NCBI GenBank assembly: GCA_002355455.1
Contig: AP017375.1
Coordinates: 2,790,001-2,854,000 of the forward strand
Reading direction: 5' to 3'
Origin: Stanieria sp. NIES-3757
GTDB lineage: Bacteria > Cyanobacteriota > Cyanobacteriia > Cyanobacteriales > Xenococcaceae
DNA length: 64,000 nucleotides
Shown here piece by piece: positions 27,041 to 37,474 of this stretch; within the stretch, counting starts at the first letter, position 1; each line of letters begins with the position of its first letter. The notes under the pieces are model-generated. The model saw nothing but the letters and a program-made list of their open reading frames with translations, had not been told where the DNA came from and made no database searches. Position numbers and translations under genes: made by a program.

Positions 27041-27102
27041 CAACATTTCAACCTTCCTTCGCAAGTTTAGAATAACCAATTGCTTAATTTTGCCTAGCTA
27101 TC

Positions 27103-27121
27103 TGTAACGGACTGAAATTAT
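27103..27121 (+). repeat. Left terminal inverted repeat of the outer transposon
   Basis: TGTAACGGACTGAAATTAT is preceded by GCTATC. It is a perfect inverted match to 36415-36433. It begins TGT, as do Tn7-type ends. Confidence 0.85.
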
Positions 27122-27152
27122 CGGTGTTTTCAGCCCACATTAAATGAAACTA

Positions 27153-27347
27153 TATAGCACTACTTATTTAGGTTAGGACGAAAAACCCTGTAAGGGACGG
27201 GGCGTACAAGGTGAGGGGGCGGTTGGCGAGGTTGCCTCGCCAACTTCAGACCCCCGTGCGGAATTCGATTCCGCACACAGCCCCTCCGCTTCGTGAATCG
27301 CCCCTACGATCTATAATGATGTCCTAATCTTTCTTTGTACTGCTATA
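27153..27347. mobile_element. MITE, copy 1 (195 bp)
   Basis: The ends are imperfect inverted repeats of about 27 bases: TATAGCACTAC...TTAGGAC at the left and GTCCTAA...GTACTGCTATA at the right. They are flanked by TA as for IS630/mariner-type insertions. Inside are two perfect hairpins, TTGGCGAGG/CCTCGCCAA (loop TTG) and GTGCGGAAT/ATTCCGCAC (loop TCG). A shorter relative with the same ends is at 42866-42970. It lies within the outer transposon beside the ATPase fragment and encodes nothing. Confidence 0.75.
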
Positions 27348-27699
27348 ATTCCAGCAGCTTTCGTTCTCTTTTTTCGGGTTGGGTGGAAACTTTAAAGTCT
27401 TTTTCAATTGATAAATCGTAAAACAAAGCTGTAATCAGAGTAGATAGGTTAACTCGGTCGGATTCTACAGCTAAAGAACGAGAAACAATGATTTCCTTAG
27501 CTTTGCCTAAATCTGCTATCAAACGTTGTAAAAAGGTAGTCTTACCAGAACCAACGATGCCAGAAAGAGCAATTAATCTTCCCTGAGTAATAATTTTGCT
27601 AATTTCTTGTTCCAAATGGGTTTGGGCTTCGGTGGTAAAAAAACCTAAGTGATCTAGCTCTTGCTCCAAACCAAAGAAATTCATGACCTCGCTGAACAT
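27343..27699 (-). pseudogene. Truncated AAA ATPase of the outer transposon (TniB/ExeA-like)
   Basis: Only about 118 residues remain of a protein that normally has some 270. Walker A is intact (ALSGIVGSGKTTFLQR, about residues 44-59), after an N-terminal FFGLEQELDHLGFFTTEAQ typical of ExeA/TniB-like transposition ATPases. The frame ends in the right arm of the MITE, and Walker B and the sensor regions are missing. Even without the MITE the transposon-end sequence would give a stop at once, so the loss came from an earlier deletion next to the end. A GGAGGAG ribosome site precedes the ATG, 13 bases after the transposase gene. Confidence 0.75.
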
Positions 27700-27712
27700 A
27701 ACCCACTCCTCC

Positions 27713-29001
27713 TTAACGACTAAAATAATCCCCGATTTCTCTCATAACTTCCTTTTTGTTAAGGGTCTTTGAGAGAATGGAGTCTACAGTTGCCATCTGT
27801 TCTGGAGTGAGTTTTGCCAGAGGTTTGAGTAAATAATCGGCAATCGCTACTTTGGCAGCAATAACATTTTTAAACTCCAGTTCTTCAAAAGGGTCTGGGT
27901 CAACAAAAGACTGAACGGGAAAGGGAATCAAATTATCTTTGATGACTGGTAACTTAACCGTGCCAAGGGCAGAATCTGGTAATGTCAACTGTTTGGCTAG
28001 AGCCTCAATGCGCTCGCTTCTTTTTTGAGTCGGGGTTTTCTTAAAACTGCGATAACTATCGAGCGGGATTGGTTTACCGATAGGCGTATAAGGACCATAA
28101 CGAGTCGATTGATGTTCGACATACAATTCGCTATCAAACAAGCCCCACCAGAGAATTACTTTCTCTCCTGCTAAATCGGGTTCTACTTCATATGCCACTC
28201 CATCTACAGTTACGCGAGCGTCAATTCCCACTTTTCTTTGTTCTGGTTCTCTAGCAAAGGTGCAAAATCTCTCCCAACTGCACATTTCTCTAATTCCTTC
28301 TCGTTTTTTCCTTTGGCACGAGCCGTAACTCGTCTACCGCCTTTTCCTTCGGGTACATGGGTGCGCACTTCAACCCCCAGATAATTCATTACTTTCTGAA
28401 AGACTCGACTGCGACTAACTGGACCGTTATCCAGGTAGAGCATTTTAGGAATTCCTTGGAAGGGAAAACCTTCTGTAGTCTTGGCAGACATGGCATTGAA
28501 TAGGAATTTTAATGCTGCTGCTGTATCTTCCCCATAAACCTCGTGGTATTCCTGATAAGCTACTCCACTGCGGTCATCAACCACGCTGTACAGCATCAAT
28601 AATTGCTTTCCCCGACCTGGTTCTAACTCAATAGAGTTTTTCAGTCGCTTGAGGTCGCTCGAACTTAAATCGAAGTGCCAGCATTGGTTGCTGTATTCGG
28701 CTTCAAAGCGAACCGCAGGTGGCTGGCGAGATAATCTTTCTTTGTCGTATCCCCATTGTTTGAGATAGCGATTGACGGTAGTTTTCTTGAGTAATCCCGA
28801 CGGTGCTTGCAGATGTCCGTCTTCGGTATTGATTCCATGTTCTTCCAGCAATCTAATTGCCTGTACGGTGGAGAGATGACGACCCTGACCGTTGCTCGTT
28901 CTCACTTTCAGAGCAGCAATAATTTCACAGTACCGCAGTAAGGTTGGTTTGGGCATAACTCGCGGTTGTCCATAATCGGCACGACGGACTGATTTGGGAG
29001 T
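27713..29001 (-). pseudogene. rve-type transposase of the outer transposon, interrupted and deleted
   Basis: This is a DDE transposase of the TnsB/TniA/Mu type. The remaining N-terminal part (from TPKSVRRADYG) has helix-turn-helix-like segments, then the catalytic aspartates in QCWHFDLSSSD and MLYLDNGPVS. After VTARAKGK the frame breaks near 28300. The C-terminal part continues in another frame (GIREMCSWERF... to IGDYFSR) with a Mu-type beta-barrel region (DARVTVDGVAYEVEPDLAGE). About 40-50 codons, probably including the area of the third acidic residue, seem to be lost. The apparent start at 29088 lies inside the IS630 copy and is artificial; the true start is at 36210. Confidence 0.8.
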
Positions 29002-29011
29002 TATAGTCGTT

Positions 29012-29573
29012 TTAAATAAGAATTGAGGGATTATCTCTTTCAGAATAGTCTTTAACGATTTGGGCAACACTTGTACCTTCGGGGGCATACTTTCTTCTCT
29101 TTTTCATGGCAGCAAAATCATGTTCAATGGAATTGAAATCGGGGGAATACCTGGGCAAAAATAACACCTGGTGTCCTCTTGCCTCCGCAATTTCTTCTAT
29201 TCTGTTTTTGCGATGGATAGGGGCATTATCAAGTATCAGAGTCGAGTTGGGGTATAATTCCTCGGCATTGCCATTGCTCTAACCATTGTTCAAAACCCGC
29301 AGCATTGACACTTCCTTGAATTAACATTGGAGCCAGTAATTCTCTATCTCGCCTAGCTGCTATTAAGTTTTCTCTGGCGGTTCGTTTTCCTGTTCTCGAA
29401 CCATAAATTTTTTTACCTCGTTTGGCGTAACCATAATCTTGATATACACGATTGTCAAAACCGCATTCATCAATGTAAGTTAAATTTTGGCTTCCTTGTT
29501 GTTGAACAATCTGCCGTAATTGCTTAAGAAATTTCTGTCTCTCTCGATGATTACGCTCTCGATACCTTTGCTG
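29012..29573 (-). pseudogene. IS630 transposase DDE half, frameshifted (copy 1)
   Basis: In the minus frame after an A8 tract the sequence reads LTYIDECGFDNRVYQDYGYAKRG, with the first catalytic aspartate, through NAAGFEQWLEQW. A frameshift near 29225-29275 then moves to a second frame with LILDNAPIHRKNRIEE and LFLPRYSPDFNSIEHDF, which hold the second aspartate and the glutamate. All DDE residues survive but not in one frame. The same break is in copy 2, so the defect predates the duplication or is bypassed. Confidence 0.75.
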
Positions 29574-29874
29574 TTTTTTTTCTCGTAATTTTCATTTGTT
29601 TGATTGCATACCAGATCGCGGTGGTATGCACTCCAAAATGTTCTGCCCGGTCTTTGAGTTTGGCATCAGGTTCATCTTTAATATGCTGTTCTAAAGCCTT
29701 CCAATTTAGTTTGCGCTCGCGGTGTTTAACTTTAGTAGGAGCTAAATTATCTCGTTTCAACCAATTGTGTACTGAGCCTTCTGAGACAGAAAAACGTCTG
29801 GCAGCTTCAGCTTTAGCTCCACCCGCCTCCACAAATGCCACTACTCTTTGGCGTAAATCTACACTATAAGTCAT
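29551..29874 (-). CDS. IS630 transposase, helix-turn-helix half (copy 1)
   Basis: This 107-residue DNA-binding half of an IS630-type transposase has AEAARRFSVSEGSVHNWLKR near residues 20-40 as the first helix-turn-helix, and a second in KLKDRAEHFGVHTTAIWYAI. The frame ends shortly after a run of eight A (29574-29581 on the other strand), where slippage would join it to the DDE half. Its predicted protein is identical to that at 35836. Confidence 0.85.
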   Translation of the reverse strand: MTYSVDLRQRVVAFVEAGGAKAEAARRFSVSEGSVHNWLKRDNLAPTKVKHRERKLNWKALEQHIKDEPDAKLKDRAEHFGVHTTAIWYAIKQMKITRKKTAKVSRA

Positions 29875-29973
29875 TACTCTCTTGCTACACTCAGTTCTTA
29901 TTTAAATTTACTATATAACCACAACTTACTGCACTGTTTTTAAAATATAGATAATTGAGTTAAATCAAACAGT

Positions 29974-31116
29974 TAAGTGCCTATGCAAAATTAATTGTAT
30001 ATTTCGTCCCAAAGTTTATGAGGATGTTTTCTACAGCTTTGACTAAAGTAGAATAACTCTCATAAGCATTTGTTTCTAGCCACTGATATTTAATAAATCT
30101 CCAGAATATTTCTATAATATTCAACTGGGGAGAATAGCTAGGCAAAAAGAATATTTCTAATCCTTTCTTTGACCATTCCTCTTCCTTATCCCATAAAAAT
30201 CTATTTTGGTGAATTGAGGAATTATCCATAATCAATACAGTTTTTTTGGTCAGCTTTTCACAAAACTTATCAAGGCAAGCTATTACGACATCACTATGAA
30301 TACTGCATTCAAAGGTATAGGCTTCTAGTTCATTTTGTCTTGTTAAGAATCCCAACACATTTAATCTTTTACTTGGTTGGCTGGGCACTTCTATTTTTTG
30401 ATTCTTTTCTTGCCAGGCATAAGGAAGATATGGGAGCAGACGCTCATCCAGTTTCATCTACATACCTAATTTCTATTTTTCCAATTTTCTCAAGTTGAAT
30501 TAGTTGCTCTAATTCTTGGCACTTTCGAGTATAAAATTCAGGAACTGGCTCTCCTCCTACTCTTCTTTTAATCCGATACCATCCCATTTGAACAAATTTT
30601 ATGACTCTTTTGATAGTATCTTTGCTTGCTGTTATTCCCCATTGCGTATGAATTTTTTCTTGCACTAACCCAAGATTTTTGGGTGTTTCTTTTACCCATT
30701 CTTTAATGATTTTTTGTTGCTGCTCATTAAAAATATTTTTTCTTCCCTGACCTGGGTGATTATAGAGTCCCACTAAACCACAAGTTTCCCAATTATTAAA
30801 CCAGTTATAAATTGTGTTGCGACTTACTTTGAATATTTTCATCAACTCCGATATTTTGTAACCTTCATAACTTAATTGAATTGCCAGCGCTCTCTGTCTC
30901 ACTTGGTAGTATTTACTCTGTTGATAAATTCTTGTTAATAGTTTTAGTGTTTCTTTGGTTAAACCTTTGATATATCTCATTAGGTATCTATATTCAGCTT
31001 TGAATCCAGTTAGCGATCGCCCACTAGCTAGCCGCGATCGCTATACTTTTTAAACTCCAAAATAATTATTTAACACTTCAGCAAAAAATATACAAATAAA
31101 TTTGCTTAATTACTTA
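29974..31116 (-). mobile_element. Second, different IS630-type insertion sequence
   Basis: The element contains two overlapping transposase frames. Its ends are imperfect inverted repeats: TAAGTGCCTATGCAAAATTA (29974) against, inverted from 31116, TAAGTAATTAAGCAAATTTA. Both continue to a common TTGTATATTT. TA lies at each edge. The total is about 1.14 kb, the normal size for IS630. It is unrelated in sequence to the 914-base copies. It interrupts a small reading frame that continues at 31117. Confidence 0.75.
29981..30980 (-). pseudogene. IS630-type transposase, frameshifted
   Basis: The N-terminal frame (30444-30980, 178 residues) has a Tc1-like helix-turn-helix (GYKISELMKIFKVSRNTIYN) and a helical domain ending IEIRYVDETG, which includes the first catalytic aspartate. 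The C-terminal frame (29981-30457, 158 residues) has LDERLLPYLPYAW, VLIMDNSSIHQN with the second aspartate, and LPSYSPQLNIIEIFW with the final glutamate. The frames overlap by 14 bases at DETG, where an intact protein would continue; a small deletion is likely. The element is probably not autonomous. Confidence 0.8.
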
Positions 31117-31322
31117 TTAAGGATCGCTATGATGTTAGACAATTTCTGATCGACCTAAGAGAGTACATCGACGAGCGAGCTTGCGATTTTAAAGTGGATA
31201 TGAACATGAGGGACGAGAACGAGGCTTTAGTCGAGCTTTTGGAGTACCTGAAGCGGCAGATTAAAGGGCATATTGAAGTGGTAGACCTACTCAAGCAAGA
31301 AAATCAAAATAACTGGAAGTAA
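31117..31322 (+). pseudogene. Reading-frame remnant interrupted by the second IS630
   Basis: About 68 codons in one frame have no start: KDRYDVRQFLIDLREYIDER, then an acidic helical stretch to QNNWK and a stop. Removing the IS630 at 29974-31116 (with one TA) extends the frame upstream to IIELNQTVIK, consistent with the IS having landed in it. No family is recognised. It is followed by a terminator-like hairpin. Confidence 0.3.
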
Positions 31323-31329
31323 AAGCTTT

Positions 31330-31352
31330 GGCAGGGTATCTTCTCCCCTGCC
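31330..31352 (+). terminator. Terminator-like hairpin
   Basis: GGCAGGG and CCCTGCC arms form a 7-base stem with a 9-base loop, followed by TTCTAT. It lies 8 bases after the remnant frame at 31322. Confidence 0.4.
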
Positions 31353-31755
31353 TTCTATACCATTAATGGGATAACTACGCAAGAGCTATTAAATCTTTTA
31401 ATAGGTGATTTGGCAATGCTAATTCCCATAATGAATTAGCAGGGCTTATAGTGCTTGCTCTATCTAGGATACAAGCCCATAGCTAACGTTGGATAATATG
31501 TGTTTCCGGAATTAGCTTGACAGAACCATTACTACAAAAGCAATAGAATGATAAGCGGCTAATACCGATAAAAATAGGATAACAGCACTGGTATTAATGG
31601 CGATCGCAGACTCTAGGAAATTACTTTTTAAAGTTATCGTTATCAATCTTGAACAAAATCGCGATTATCAAAATTTGTATTGAAAATAATCTTTTAAGAA
31701 GAGGTTTTTCTAGTATAAAAATAAAGTTTAATTACTTCATATCCTTGAGCTTAAA

Positions 31756-31872
31756 TTGGTTTTTGTAATTGGCACCGGCGCACAGCCAGGGAAAAGCGGT
31801 GAGAATGGCGGGAATAGTCCAGCTATAATACCTTGGAATCCTCCTCCGCCTCCGCCTCCGCCTGACGTTTAA
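31756..31872 (+). CDS. Possible short Gly/Pro-rich peptide
   Basis: A 38-codon frame opens with TTG at 31756. It has a hydrophobic start (VFVIGTG), a glycine/asparagine-rich middle (PGKSGENGGNSP) and eight consecutive prolines encoded by a CCTCCG repeat before DV-stop. There is no good ribosome site. It may be the C-terminal remnant of a larger protein, or chance; the regular composition is the only support. Confidence 0.2.
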   Translation: MVFVIGTGAQPGKSGENGGNSPAIIPWNPPPPPPPPDV

Positions 31873-32071
31873 AAAGCGATAACAAAAAAAGCCTAAATTC
31901 GGGAATCTAAGATACCGAATATGTGCGATCGCGAATTACACGAAACTACCAAACTATGTTACTAAGGAGAGCACTTAATAGTGAACACTTTTCGAGCAGG
32001 AGGTCTTCAGCATGCCTTTTAGCAAGTTCACAATGTTAACCATTTAACTACAAAATTAAAAGGAAATCGAT

Positions 32072-32647
32072 ATGTCAGAAGCATCCACACAGCAGCGCGA
32101 CTGGACAAAACCCGCAGCGATGGCGATCCCGAAAGGGGGATTTATAGAAGGGCAAGAGGAACAGGGACGATACGGTCCCATCTTTCCCCAGACTCCTGCG
32201 TGTTATGGCTTTACGATCATCGCAAAGATCATTCCCGGCAGAGAGGAAACCATTCGCGACTATGGGAAGAAGCTCGAAGAAACGATCGCCAATCTTCCCG
32301 ATGCCCTTGCCGTACTCAAGCTACACTACCTGCGCTGGGTACTCTTCGACATTGGGGCAGATACCTACTTCATGTACCAGGGAATCTTTGACACCGACTT
32401 CGACAAATACACCGAGGATGCTGTGTCCCTCTTCTCGGCGTACGGCATTAACACAGTCTTTGAAAACCTTGAGGGGTTTCCCGAAGATTGGAAGACGAAT
32501 ACTCCAGCGTTCATCAAGTTTGTCCGGGAACACCAGTGCCCGAGCTTCCTAGAATATGGAGAATACCCCTATGTCAGCTCTGACGAAATCAAAAAGGCCC
32601 TCAAACTCAAGGCGGCGTTCTCCACCATGCTCGACCAAATGCAGTAA
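32072..32647 (+). CDS. DyP-cassette gene 1: small alpha+beta protein
   Basis: This 191-residue protein begins the GC-rich cassette. I recognise no named family. The middle (YGFTIIAKIIPGREETIRDY, LHYLRWVLFDIGADTYFMYQ, then IFDTDFDKYTEDAVSLFSAY) resembles the ferredoxin-like module attached to some large DyP-related peroxidases, where a similar RW...FxSNFD pattern occurs. This is a resemblance from memory. There is no signal peptide or membrane segment. A ribosome site (AAAGGAAA) precedes the ATG. It is followed 18 bases later by the DyP gene, so a role as peroxidase partner is inferred. Base composition is well above that of the flanks, and there is no HIP1 site. Confidence 0.7.
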   Translation: MSEASTQQRDWTKPAAMAIPKGGFIEGQEEQGRYGPIFPQTPACYGFTIIAKIIPGREETIRDYGKKLEETIANLPDALAVLKLHYLRWVLFDIGADTYFMYQGIFDTDFDKYTEDAVSLFSAYGINTVFENLEGFPEDWKTNTPAFIKFVREHQCPSFLEYGEYPYVSSDEIKKALKLKAAFSTMLDQMQ

Positions 32648-32665
32648 TTCGATATAAGGTTTGAT

Positions 32666-33988
32666 ATGCTTGAATTTGATGATATCCAGCACATTTTATT
32701 GACTCGTACGCCCGCTCTCACCGGGCGGTACGAATTCCTGTCGTTCCGTAATCCTGATGATGGTCGGAAGTGGCTATCCGCGATCCTCGAAACGGTAAAA
32801 TCTGCCCAAGAGGCAACCGCTTCGATGGAGGAGGATGAGCGATGGGTCAGTGTGGCCTTCACCTGGAACGGTCTGCGGGCGCTGGGGGTTGATGAAGCCT
32901 CACTGGACACGTTTCCCGAGGAGTTCAAGCAGGGCATGGTTGCTCGTGCGGAAGTCCTCGGGGACACCGGCGCAAATCATCCGGACCATTGGGTCGGGGG
33001 TCTGGCCGGTCCAGATCTCCACGCCATCGTCATCCTCTTTGCTCGCGATAACGTAGAGCGCGAACGGTGTAAAGAAAAGCACCAGCAACTCGTCGCACAG
33101 TATGAGGGAGTCGAGGTCCTCTCGTCGCTGGATCTGGAAGCAACGCCGCCTTTCAACTACGCCCATGACCACTTCGGTTATCGCGATCGGCTATCGCAGC
33201 CAGCGATCGAAGGAACTGGCGAGGAACCAACCCCCGGTTCTGGTGCGCCGCTGAAAGCGGGCGAGTTCATCTTGGGCTACCCAGACGAAAACGGACCTCC
33301 TGCCAATCTACCGCAACCCGAGATCCTCTCCCGCAACGGCAGCTATATGGCTTATCGACGCTTGCAAGAACATGTCGTTGAGTTTCGTGAATTTCTGCGT
33401 CAGCACGGTCAGACGCCGGAGGAGCAGGAACTGGTGGCGGCGAAACTGATGGGTCGTTGGCGCAGTGGTGCCCCGCTGGTGCTTGCACCGGACAAGGACG
33501 ATCCAGCACTGGCTACCGATCCCCAGCGGAACAACGACTTCAACTATAAGACGATGGACCCGCATGGTTATGCCGTACCGCTCGGTTCCCATATCCGTCG
33601 TCTCAATCCTCGTGATACGGCAGCCAATATGAACCGACGACGGATGATTCGTCGCGGGGCGACCTACGGCCCGCCACTTCCGGAGGATGCACATGAGGAC
33701 GGTGTAGAGCGTGGCATCGCGGCATTCGTAATCTGCGCCAGCCTCATTCGCCAGTTTGAGTTCGCGCAGAATGTGTGGATAAACGACAAAAACTTCCATG
33801 AACTTGGCAATGAGCGCGATCCGCTCATCGGCACGCAAGACGGCACATTAGAATTCAAAATTCCGAAGCGTCCAATCCGGAAAAAAATCACTGGCATGCC
33901 AGCCTTCACCACTGTCCGGGGCGGAGCTTACTTTTTTCTGCCGGGACTCAAGGCACTTCGATACCTTGCGTCACTCGGTTCTGCCTGA
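32666..33988 (+). CDS. DyP-type haem peroxidase
   Basis: This dye-decolourising peroxidase has 440 residues and uses H2O2 with a haem cofactor. The catalytic-aspartate motif reads HFGYRDRLSQPAIEG, with Asp at about residue 174; family consensus is GxxDG, so the last glycine is arginine here. The proximal haem histidine is at about 309 in GSHIRRLNPRD, and the distal arginine region is MIRRGATYG (327-333). The C-terminal domain ends in FTTVRGGAYFFLPGLKALRYL, as in the family. There is no Tat or Sec signal and no encapsulin-targeting tail, so it is probably cytoplasmic. The substrate is unknown. Composition differs strongly from the host genes. Confidence 0.93.
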   Translation: MLEFDDIQHILLTRTPALTGRYEFLSFRNPDDGRKWLSAILETVKSAQEATASMEEDERWVSVAFTWNGLRALGVDEASLDTFPEEFKQGMVARAEVLGDTGANHPDHWVGGLAGPDLHAIVILFARDNVERERCKEKHQQLVAQYEGVEVLSSLDLEATPPFNYAHDHFGYRDRLSQPAIEGTGEEPTPGSGAPLKAGEFILGYPDENGPPANLPQPEILSRNGSYMAYRRLQEHVVEFREFLRQHGQTPEEQELVAAKLMGRWRSGAPLVLAPDKDDPALATDPQRNNDFNYKTMDPHGYAVPLGSHIRRLNPRDTAANMNRRRMIRRGATYGPPLPEDAHEDGVERGIAAFVICASLIRQFEFAQNVWINDKNFHELGNERDPLIGTQDGTLEFKIPKRPIRKKITGMPAFTTVRGGAYFFLPGLKALRYLASLGSA

Positions 33989-34051
33989 TGAATGCCCGAT
34001 CAATCAACACTCGTTCATTGCAAACACAGCAACCCAAAAGGGGGGATACTC

Positions 34052-35071
34052 ATGAATGCTGTCATTTCAGCCGCACGCACTTACAACCAGAACCATGTGC
34101 CTCGCCAATACACCCGAGGTAAACGAAGGGTGACCATCTATTGGACCTGGAGCTACCCCTGGGAAGCCAATAGAGATCTCACGGAAATGGATAATCGTTT
34201 TTCAACCATGACCGAGGTCCGCCGAGTAACGTGGCCTGCCTATGAATCACCGGAGTGGGGTGTGTCGCAATTTCTCCAGGGAATCGAGGGGACGCTGGAG
34301 TTGTTTCACCGCTCCACGCTCGACTTCCAGCAATTAGTGGGTGAGATCACCGATCGTCCGGTTGCGGTGTTCCAGCGCGTCGATCAGGCGGGATATGCAC
34401 TTGCGATCGACGAACGGATTCTAGCGGATACGGACACGCTGATGGTGTTCGGACTGGATCATCTCATTTCTCAACAGGAGGCGGCACCGGAGGAGATTGC
34501 GGCGATCCGCGAGTGGCTCAAACGCGAAGGCACCTGTCTGCTGATTGGGCCTCATCATGATGTTGGTTTCACCGATGACATGCAACAGCGTCAGATGGAG
34601 TACGTTCATCATGGTGATGCCCTTGTTCCACGCCAACAGCGGTTTGGCCAATATACCCGTTCGCTGATGAAAGCACTTGGGGTGCCGGTGCTGAATCAAT
34701 ATGGACTTCGGCCAGCCCTTGTCGAAGGCACCAAGGAGATAACACCGCTGACGATCAACAAGGATCTGGACGAACTTGGATTGCTCAACGGGGTCACTAC
34801 CTTTAATTTCCATCTCCACCTGCCTCATTATGCGCTGACCACCGATGACACAAACTCTATTCATGTGTTGGCACGCCAGCCTATTGACCTTAATCGGCCA
34901 CACCCTTTCACCCAGGAGGGCAACACCGAATTCAACTCCTTCATCTGGATGCCTCCGAAAGACGAACGCGCCGGACATATCCTCCTGGCTGACTCAACCA
35001 TCTTCACGACGCTGTTTGGCGGTACGAACAGCTTGAATAATTTTTGGAAGAATATTGCCGTGATGAAGTGA
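34052..35071 (+). CDS. DyP-cassette gene 3: unknown protein
   Basis: I do not recognise this protein. The frame opens at 33992, but the ATG at 34052 has a strong GGGGGGA site 7 bases upstream and gives 339 residues. The centre (ADTDTLMVFGLDHLISQQEA and REWLKREGTCLLIGPHHDVG) looks like an alpha/beta fold of the class-I glutamine amidotransferase/ThuA kind, without a clear catalytic triad. Histidines are frequent (PHHD, YVHHGD, FHLHLPHYAL), so metal binding is possible. The C-terminus has HILLADSTIFTTLFGG. It is codirectional with, and close behind, the DyP gene. Confidence 0.65.
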   Translation: MNAVISAARTYNQNHVPRQYTRGKRRVTIYWTWSYPWEANRDLTEMDNRFSTMTEVRRVTWPAYESPEWGVSQFLQGIEGTLELFHRSTLDFQQLVGEITDRPVAVFQRVDQAGYALAIDERILADTDTLMVFGLDHLISQQEAAPEEIAAIREWLKREGTCLLIGPHHDVGFTDDMQQRQMEYVHHGDALVPRQQRFGQYTRSLMKALGVPVLNQYGLRPALVEGTKEITPLTINKDLDELGLLNGVTTFNFHLHLPHYALTTDDTNSIHVLARQPIDLNRPHPFTQEGNTEFNSFIWMPPKDERAGHILLADSTIFTTLFGGTNSLNNFWKNIAVMK

Positions 35072-35296
35072 GATCCTAACCCTGCCTAAAGCTAAGGAAG
35101 CTGTCATATAGTGCCAAATAGGATTAAAATCACTACTCTGATTAACTTTCCAAAATCTATATCCTAGTCATGCGATTGCTAATCATCTCAGTTAAAAAAT
35201 TCTTGATTTGAAGTAGTGTCAAAATTTTTGAGAGGAAACAAGCTATCTCTATAAGGTTTTTACATCAATTTTAAACAAATTTTCAATATAGTCGTT

Positions 35297-35858
35297 TTAA
35301 ATAAGAATTGAGGGATTATCTCTTTCAGAATAGTCTTTAACGATTTGGGCAACACTTGTACCTTCGGGGGCATACTTTCTTCTCTTTTTCATGGCAGCAA
35401 AATCATGTTCAATGGAATTGAAATCGGGGGAATACCTGGGCAAAAATAACACCTGGTGTCCTCTTGCCTCCGCAATTTCTTCTATTCTGTTTTTGCGATG
35501 GATAGGGGCATTATCAAGTATCAGAGTCGAGTTGGGGTATAATTCCTCGGCATTGCCATTGCTCTAACCATTGTTCAAAACCCGCAGCATTGACACTTCC
35601 TTGAATTAACATTGGAGCCAGTAATTCTCTATCTCGCCTAGCTGCTATTAAGTTTTCTCTGGCGGTTCGTTTTCCTGTTCTCGAACCATAAATTTTTTTA
35701 CCTCGTTTGGCGTAACCATAATCTTGATATACACGATTGTCAAAACCGCATTCATCAATGTAAGTTAAATTTTGGCTTCCTTGTTGTTGAACAATCTGCC
35801 GTAATTGCTTAAGAAATTTCTGTCTCTCTCGATGATTACGCTCTCGATACCTTTGCTG
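35297..35858 (-). pseudogene. IS630 transposase DDE half, frameshifted (copy 2)
   Basis: It has the same content and the same frameshift as 29012-29573: an upstream part with YIDECGFDNRVY and a downstream part with LILDNAPIHRK and YSPDFNSIEHDF in another frame. Confidence 0.75.
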
Positions 35859-36159
35859 TTTTTTTTCTCGTAATTTTCATTTGTTTGATTGCATACCAGA
35901 TCGCGGTGGTATGCACTCCAAAATGTTCTGCCCGGTCTTTGAGTTTGGCATCAGGTTCATCTTTAATATGCTGTTCTAAAGCCTTCCAATTTAGTTTGCG
36001 CTCGCGGTGTTTAACTTTAGTAGGAGCTAAATTATCTCGTTTCAACCAATTGTGTACTGAGCCTTCTGAGACAGAAAAACGTCTGGCAGCTTCAGCTTTA
36101 GCTCCACCCGCCTCCACAAATGCCACTACTCTTTGGCGTAAATCTACACTATAAGTCAT
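35836..36159 (-). CDS. IS630 transposase, helix-turn-helix half (copy 2)
   Basis: This protein has 107 residues, identical to that at 29551-29874. It has two helix-turn-helix segments (FSVSEGSVHNWLKR; FGVHTTAIWYAI) and runs into the A8 tract at 35859-35866. Confidence 0.85.
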   Translation of the reverse strand: MTYSVDLRQRVVAFVEAGGAKAEAARRFSVSEGSVHNWLKRDNLAPTKVKHRERKLNWKALEQHIKDEPDAKLKDRAEHFGVHTTAIWYAIKQMKITRKKTAKVSRA

Positions 36160-36198
36160 TACTCTCTTGCTACACTCAGTTCTTATTTAAATTTACTA

Positions 36199-36210
36199 TA
36201 ACTCAAACAT
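36199..36210 (-). pseudogene. First four codons of the outer transposase
   Basis: On the minus strand ATG-TTT-GAG-TTA (MFEL) ends exactly at the TA edge of IS630 copy 2. Joining it to the sequence beyond copy 1 (ACT-CCC-AAA, TPKS at 29001 and below) with a single TA restores one frame, MFELTPKSVRRADYG. This shows where the composite unit was inserted. Confidence 0.8.
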
Positions 36211-36433
36211 TTATCGCCCATCGTTATTGACACGAGCTGAATGATAGAACTGAAAAGAGATACAGCTTGTTTTCAATTATTGTGAGTCGAGATTTATAAT
36301 TTCAGTTTAGTTTCAGTTAATTTGGTCTCAGTTTCAAATAATCTGGGTCGAAGCGAAATTATAGTTTCATTTAATGTGGGCTGATTCTGCCAATGATTTC
36401 AGGTCGGAGTGATTATAATTTCAGTCCGTTACA
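36211..36433 (-). repeat. Transposon end with repeated transposase-binding-like motifs
   Basis: Reading inward from 36433 on the minus strand, a TGAAA[T/C]TAT-like motif recurs about seven times: ACTGAAATTAT, CCTGAAATCAT, AATGAAACTAT, TTTGAAACTGA, ACTGAAACTAA, ACTGAAATTAT and AATTGAAAACA. Such arrays are the binding sites of TnsB-type transposases. The opposite end (27103) has only two matching blocks, so the ends are asymmetric as in Tn7 relatives. Confidence 0.7.
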
Positions 36434-36505
36434 GCTATCTAACACTTGATCTCGATCTCGTTTGAGTTAGAGTAGTAATTATTTTTCGACTCGACAAATC
36501 GAGCC

Positions 36506-37474
36506 ATGACTAAAGTAAGTGTAATTATTCCTGCTTATAATGGCGATCGCTATATTGACAAGGCAATTGATAGTATTTTGCACCAAAGCTATCGTGATTA
36601 TGAAATTATCGTTGTTGATGATGGTTCTAGAGATCGTACGAGTCAAATTGTACAAAGTTATGGTTCAAAAGTTCAATATATATCTCAGCAGAATCAAGGA
36701 GTAGCAGCAGCCCGTAATCGAGGGCTAGAAATAGCTCAGGGAGAATATATTGGTTTTTTAGACCAAGATGATTTTTTTTTACCAAATAAACTCGCTTTAC
36801 AAGTAGCTTTATTAGAACAACAACCTTTTCTTGGTATAGTTAACAGTGGTTGGCAAATTGTTAATCAAGATGGTGCGCTTTTAGCAGCAGTAAAGCCTTG
36901 GCAAACCTTACCCAAACTAGATTTGGTTAGTTTAATTGTCTGGAAACCTGTCTTTCTCGGTGCAATGCTGTTTCGAGATTCTTGGTTAAAAAATTCCGAT
37001 GGTTTTGATATTCAACTAGAACAAACTCCTGATGTAGATTTAGTCTTACGTCTAGCTCAAATGGGTTGTCAAGCGGATTGGATAAAAGGCGAAACCGTTT
37101 GCTATCGTCAACATGAACTTAACGCCTCCAAAAACACTCTTCTACAAGCGCAAGAATTAGACTTCATTCTCGAACGATTTTTTGCTCAAGCTAATCTATC
37201 GCCAGACATTAAAGATTTAGAAAATCAATCTCGTTATCAAAGCTTAGTTTGGAGTGCTTGGCGACTTTATGAAACAGGATATTTAGTAGAAATGGCTAAA
37301 TACTTGCTTAAATCTTTGTCTTATACCAATAAACCTCACACAGAAACCATATTTGAATGGATTCAAGTCTTTAAAAACTACGCTTCAGAATACGGCAATG
37401 AAATTGATGTCTATCAACTAATTAATACTCAAGAATGGCAAGAGTTAATTAGCCGATCTATGTTTTTAATATGA
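36506..37474 (+). CDS. Family 2 glycosyltransferase
   Basis: This GT-A fold, inverting transferase has 322 residues. It has the family start VSVIIPAYNGDRYIDKAIDSI, IIVVDDGSRDRT, GVAAARNRG and the metal/nucleotide motif GFLDQDDFFLPNK, followed by a variable acceptor region. No membrane helix is seen. The substrate is unknown. It lies just outside the transposon and stands alone, although the surface-glycan locus begins about 9 kb downstream. A HIP1 site is inside its first codons. Confidence 0.9.
   Translation: MTKVSVIIPAYNGDRYIDKAIDSILHQSYRDYEIIVVDDGSRDRTSQIVQSYGSKVQYISQQNQGVAAARNRGLEIAQGEYIGFLDQDDFFLPNKLALQVALLEQQPFLGIVNSGWQIVNQDGALLAAVKPWQTLPKLDLVSLIVWKPVFLGAMLFRDSWLKNSDGFDIQLEQTPDVDLVLRLAQMGCQADWIKGETVCYRQHELNASKNTLLQAQELDFILERFFAQANLSPDIKDLENQSRYQSLVWSAWRLYETGYLVEMAKYLLKSLSYTNKPHTETIFEWIQVFKNYASEYGNEIDVYQLINTQEWQELISRSMFLI

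Follow-up and report, generated by a model that had tools for sequence, protein, structure and literature searches.

DyP peroxidases are enzymes whose physiological role is not settled; several, among them DrDyP of Deinococcus radiodurans (DR_A0145, PDB 8re2/8re3, class C/V), seem to lack activity at the pH of the cell once purified without other proteins. Studied by itself, DrDyP was inactive at pH 7.5 with a six-coordinate low-spin heme and did not regain activity upon replacement of Met190 by Gly, and its authors speculate on interacting proteins (PMC10820274). The inactivity could also be intrinsic. Exposure to UVC/vacuum is reported to raise the levels of both DR_A0145 and its catalase-like neighbour DR_A0146 (PMC5731708).

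Among solved structures, DrDyP comes closest, with about 42% full-length identity, to a predicted heme peroxidase encoded in the 64-kb stretch of Stanieria sp. NIES-3757 DNA analysed here, which is referred to as the window. The two proteins share an altered fifth residue of the GXXDG fingerprint, Met in DrDyP and Arg in the window DyP, as well as a homologue of the protein termed P1 directly upstream. While DrDyP is then followed by a catalase-like protein, the window DyP is followed by the protein termed P3 (Table 1).

P1, DyP and P3 are encoded by three codirectional genes, whose positions the preliminary description of this DNA had given correctly, and the cassette is the cargo of a decayed transposon. 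The reading favoured here, rated slightly above an even chance, is that the three proteins are a heme peroxidase of two components and a companion enzyme, and that their genes form a module mobile between phyla which was brought in by the now-dead transposon. A ribosome-binding AAGGA precedes the ATG of P1; the P3 open reading frame opens at 33992, and the start of P3 is more likely at 34052, because its homologues begin near there.

Table 1. Features of the cassette and of the enclosing transposon (window positions), and the P3 relatives in Rhizobium (positions on the respective loci).
Feature	Position	Strand	Basis or remark
Left flanking direct repeat GCTATC	27097..27102	+	probable target-site duplication
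Decayed 9.3-kb transposon, cassette as cargo	27103..36433		both ends TGTAACGGACTGAAATTAT, inward; empty site in G011
Truncated AAA ATPase, transposition partner	27343..27699	-	domain match
C-terminal region of the transposase (Mu-transpos_C_2), out of frame through a frameshift	27713..28285	-	domain match
DDE transposase, catalytic region, lacking the 5' part at the IS insertion	28213..29001	-	rve match; weak IS481-type match
IS630-type element copy 1, interrupts DDE transposase	29002..29915	-	identical to copy 2
Second IS630-type transposase, frameshifted (178 aa and 158 aa)	29981..30980	-	transposase match
P1, partner protein of 191 aa; fold predicted as dimeric alpha+beta (ferredoxin-like)	32072..32647	+	without Pfam/NCBIfam family
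DyP, 440-aa DyP-type predicted heme peroxidase, motif GYRDR, not GXXDG	32666..33988	+	homology and motif
P3, protein of 339 aa; fold predicted as class-I glutamine-amidotransferase-like	34052..35071	+	PHHDVG, HHGD, HxHLPH, HPF invariant
IS630-type element copy 2	35287..36200	-	identical to copy 1
Right flanking direct repeat GCTATC	36434..36439	+	matches left repeat
P3 relatives in Rhizobium replicons	L022 7992-8978; L116 4992-5975; L117 4989-5954		

The foreign origin of the cassette, as proposed beforehand, is supported by its composition, by the enclosing transposon and by an empty site in a genome of the same genus. The cassette is richer in G+C than its surroundings in 1-kb windows (0.515, 0.568 and 0.536 versus 0.26-0.46 elsewhere), in gene GC (0.517, 0.570 and 0.532 for P1, DyP and P3 versus a host mean of 0.368, sd 0.032) and in GC3 (0.60-0.63 versus 0.24, z about 9), and its codon usage differs from that of the host, with distances of 0.39-0.44 compared to at most 0.163 for host genes of at least 300 aa. 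The cassette of Nostoc is likewise GC-richer than its surroundings, which in most other phyla is not the case. The octamer GCGATCGC, the lack of which had been put forward as a further sign, is indeed absent from the cassette and frequent elsewhere (49 copies in the window, none from 31932 to 36543), but with 2.3 copies expected in 3 kb at the mean rate, P(0) is about 0.10, and other stretches of 4.5 and 4.8 kb lack it as well, such that its absence is weak evidence alone and was rejected as a strong indication of foreignness.

The enclosing element combines a DDE transposase and an AAA ATPase with long inverted ends, which look intact, and a probable target duplication, as Tn7/Tn5053-like (TniA-TniB) transposons do; no TniQ-like ORF was noticed in the decayed element, and the family-specific transposase models gave a weak IS481 match only. 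The DDE transposase is 65-76% identical to transposases borne on cyanobacterial plasmids, where they precede an AAA ATPase gene. When the two flanks were joined and used as a query, they matched the same-genus genome G011 (L111) as one uninterrupted alignment of 86% identity that lacks 12 bp at the join, which is the clean empty site. The transposon is now dead. The two IS630-type copies of 914 bp which flank the cassette are 100% identical and the only full copies in the genome, which marks a recent insertion or exchange on both sides. A 28-bp stretch inside the left end (27153-27180) has three further copies elsewhere in the genome.

The homology of the window DyP extends over the whole domain, with DyP_N above cut-off and full-length matches to DyP structures, and TIGR01413 is matched with E 1e-27 at 96.9 bits, the cut-off being 100.5. 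The catalytic Asp (D174), the distal Arg (R329) and the proximal His (H309) are kept in nearly all members of the clade. GXXDG, on the other hand, is not intact, as its fifth residue is R175; among the 77 clade DyPs with at least 60% identity, this position holds Arg in 75 and Gln in 2, while it is Pro in one further copy (L175) and the normal Gly in a sister type with the gene order P1-P3-DyP. Because DrDyP, which also deviates in GXXDG, still counts as a DyP (PMC10820274), the window protein is filed as a putative variant of the DyP superfamily and not as a standard member.

With respect to P1, the suggestion that it might be the partner in a split peroxidase is well supported genetically, because a P1-type gene adjoins, or is fused in frame to, the DyP gene at 40 of 46 complete loci sampled by DyP alone. 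In this unbiased test, genomes of two phyla were picked by DyP only and the loci were scanned with a broad P1 profile; one of the 47 loci was cut off, and four of the 47 derive from two centre genomes already known for P1, the exclusion of which leaves 36 of 42. Fusion of a P1-like module to DyP domains, which had been mentioned in the preliminary description, is real, with single-ORF fusions at 7 loci of this sample. Four of them were read through in full, three being chains of 1400-1530 aa that combine P450, P1-type and DyP domains (L176, L177, L179), while the fourth joins P1, DyP and a GDSL lipase domain (L178). Tandem P1-P1 genes are common among the DyP-sampled loci, and P1 is present in all nine further plasmid loci (L120-L128), which were picked by DyP or P1 similarity. 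A peroxidase that depends on a partner is expected to stay next to it or be fused with it, and this pattern is seen here. No P1 match lies within the flanks of the more distant cyanobacterial DyPs L004-L010 and L013, including the long DyP-LysM protein L007, the exception among distant cyanobacterial DyPs being the pair L002/L003 with two P1-like genes. Counting against a two-component peroxidase, the broad profile detected no P1 near the wider-family DyPs L141, L146, L168, L169, L171 and L174. A literature search largely without subscription journals found no papers on P1-DyP or P450-DyP fusions.

The structural model of P1, of moderate confidence, predicts a dimeric alpha+beta fold, in agreement with its earlier designation as ferredoxin-like, and Foldseek relates it to many dimeric barrels, IsdI heme-degrading enzymes among them, by weak matches throughout. 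A homology between P1 and a stretch of the DyP barrel was considered and rejected, as the profile comparison was negative. Neither P1 nor P3 has a Pfam or NCBIfam family match or a match in the PDB by sequence.

P3 is histidine-rich, as noticed beforehand, and many of the His are invariant; the motifs HHD, HHGD, HxHLPH and HPF, which are retained even in 39%-identical Rhizobium proteins, look like a metal site. In the case of its model, also of moderate confidence, the best Foldseek matches are GATase-like domains, none with E under 0.001. The catalytic Cys at the nucleophile elbow of class-I glutamine amidotransferases appears to be missing from the predicted fold, in which C162 lies at the start of predicted strand 162-166, not at the elbow, and the conserved stretch after this strand reads PHHDVG.

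A scan of genome contigs yielded 307 relatives of P3, the best 80 of which (67-79% identical, about 11 phyla) were fetched. Among these best 80 of 307, 70 loci from about 11 phyla show P1-DyP-P3 in the same order and on the same strand, with trio proteins 60-89% identical; the 70 include L077 and L088, whose stop-to-stop frames start early, and most of the others either run into the end of a contig or follow the alternative arrangement P1-P3-DyP. The preliminary view of the trio as a functional unit gains from this co-occurrence, which reaches beyond close relatives and into different genomic settings, chromosomes included. Plasmid searches retrieved the trio in Nostoc, with a DyP 88-89% identical, and, in the order P1-P3-DyP with a DyP 45-47% identical, in Streptomyces. 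Differences between the window genes and those of Nostoc amount to 41-58% at codon position 3 versus 5-16% at positions 1 and 2, and because they concentrate at position 3 all three cassette genes are evidently under purifying selection.

The distribution is patchy, as P1 was found in 2 of 292 cyanobacterial, 4 of 199 Acidobacteriota (the phylum of L025) and 4 of 296 Actinomycetota genomes (the phylum of L049), centre genomes and weak matches counted, with an overall frequency of about 1-2% of the sampled genomes. The cyanobacterial copies fall into a single supported group of the DyP tree, over which those of Acidobacteriota, Planctomycetota, Pseudomonadota and Myxococcota are each dispersed. 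Taken together, the high identity, the patchy occurrence and the dispersed tree groups indicate that the cassette spreads horizontally. Nostoc sp. ATCC 53789 harbours the cassette on two plasmids (L017, L018), within a duplicated stretch, and one of these copies adjoins TnsA-type and ATP-binding genes; Mycolicibacterium frederiksbergense (G321; L106, L109, L110) possesses three P1-DyP copies, two of them with a P3 match. A defence system was rejected, as PADLOC gave no match of note.

In the favoured reading, P1 and DyP are most likely one enzyme in two parts, whereby P1 would bind DyP and complete or activate either the heme pocket or the substrate channel of the latter. This pocket putatively contains Asp174, Arg329, His309 and the extra Arg175 that replaces the fingerprint glycine. 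P3, His-rich and with a predicted glutaminase-like fold but no recognisable Cys nucleophile, is probably a metal enzyme which would supply the substrate or process the product, and in the trio it may fill the place taken by a catalase-like protein or a P450 in other lineages. The candidate substrate is a (hydro)peroxide of a lipid or of another hydrophobic organic molecule, to which the companions of relatives, Deinococcus included, point: oleate hydratase, 3-hydroxyacyl-CoA dehydrogenase, acyl-CoA thioesterase and the catalase-like protein, as well as a GDSL lipase, either adjacent or fused. Counting against this substrate, such genes lie near the P1-DyP-catalase relatives and not near the trio; a link of the trio to lipid genes of its own was rejected, since the oleate hydratase cluster matches P1-DyP-catalase loci only. 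A more far-reaching proposal, put forward tentatively and with less confidence, holds that class C DyPs are obligate two-component enzymes with the undescribed P1 family as activating subunit, and that P1-DyP(GXXDR)-P3 would constitute an undescribed pathway for oxidation of lipid-like hydroperoxides with P3 as a new His-rich metalloenzyme, present also in some bufferin operons.

The arginine found throughout the clade where the glycine beside the catalytic Asp would be expected can be viewed differently, as filling the distal pocket, such that the DyP would no longer be a peroxidase and the trio would be a heme-binding, -sensing or -handling complex; the likeness of the P1 fold to small heme-handling dimeric barrels, IsdI among the weak Foldseek matches, would be in line with this. 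Retention of catalytic Asp, distal Arg and proximal His in nearly all members, and the sister type P1-P3-DyP, which combines a normal GXXDG with the same partners, make such a loss of peroxidase function unlikely. The mixed neighbours of the trio that recur in several phyla, namely genes for an SBF transporter, a pyridine-nucleotide/FAD oxidoreductase, SDR, SnoaL-like and Phenol_MetA_deg proteins, would in turn suit detoxification of an organic xenobiotic or hydroperoxide, with the transporter and an NAD(P)H-flavoprotein as auxiliaries and P1 as a separate enzyme acting on the product instead of a DyP subunit. The predicted P1 fold also resembles monooxygenase or cyclase dimeric barrels, and horizontal spread befits an accessory trait; however, the accessory genes are optional and variable, while P1, unlike them, stays with DyP and fuses directly to it, and detoxification in this form is considered improbable.

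That three unrelated genes without joint function merely share a transposon would account for the window copy, which is transposon cargo. Such plain hitch-hiking was rejected as very improbable, since about 11 phyla share the trio with its gene order and orientation unchanged, in varied settings including chromosomes, with all three genes under apparent purifying selection and P1 in places fused to DyP, and it is strongly disfavoured by the co-occurrence counts.

The conserved and sometimes fused neighbour offers a direct test of the inactivity of DyPs by addition of the partner. The cassette moreover reveals two protein families, P1 and P3, which are absent from Pfam and NCBIfam and almost unchanged among soil and water bacteria of many phyla.

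Components of the cassette are found in other combinations. In Rhizobium (L022, L116, L117), bufB and bufC of bufferin operons enclose a P3 relative 37-39% identical, without P1 or DyP, unlike the trio; L022 keeps the invariant His motifs, and no described role was found for this bufferin-operon relative. In the P1-DyP-catalase plasmid clusters of Sphingobium, Agrobacterium, Roseomonas and Novosphingobium, a P1-type gene adjoins a 42%-identical DyP as in the trio, but these Alphaproteobacteria have a catalase-like protein and an oleate hydratase operon where the trio has P3. On the plasmids of L122, L125, L126 and L127, genes for oleate hydratase, hydroxyacyl-CoA dehydrogenase, thioesterase and TetR are divergent from those for the catalase-like, P1-type and DyP proteins. 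The P450-P1-DyP fusions likewise place a P1-type domain beside the DyP domain, yet differ from the trio as they do so in one chain, with an N-terminal P450 and a normal GXXDG.
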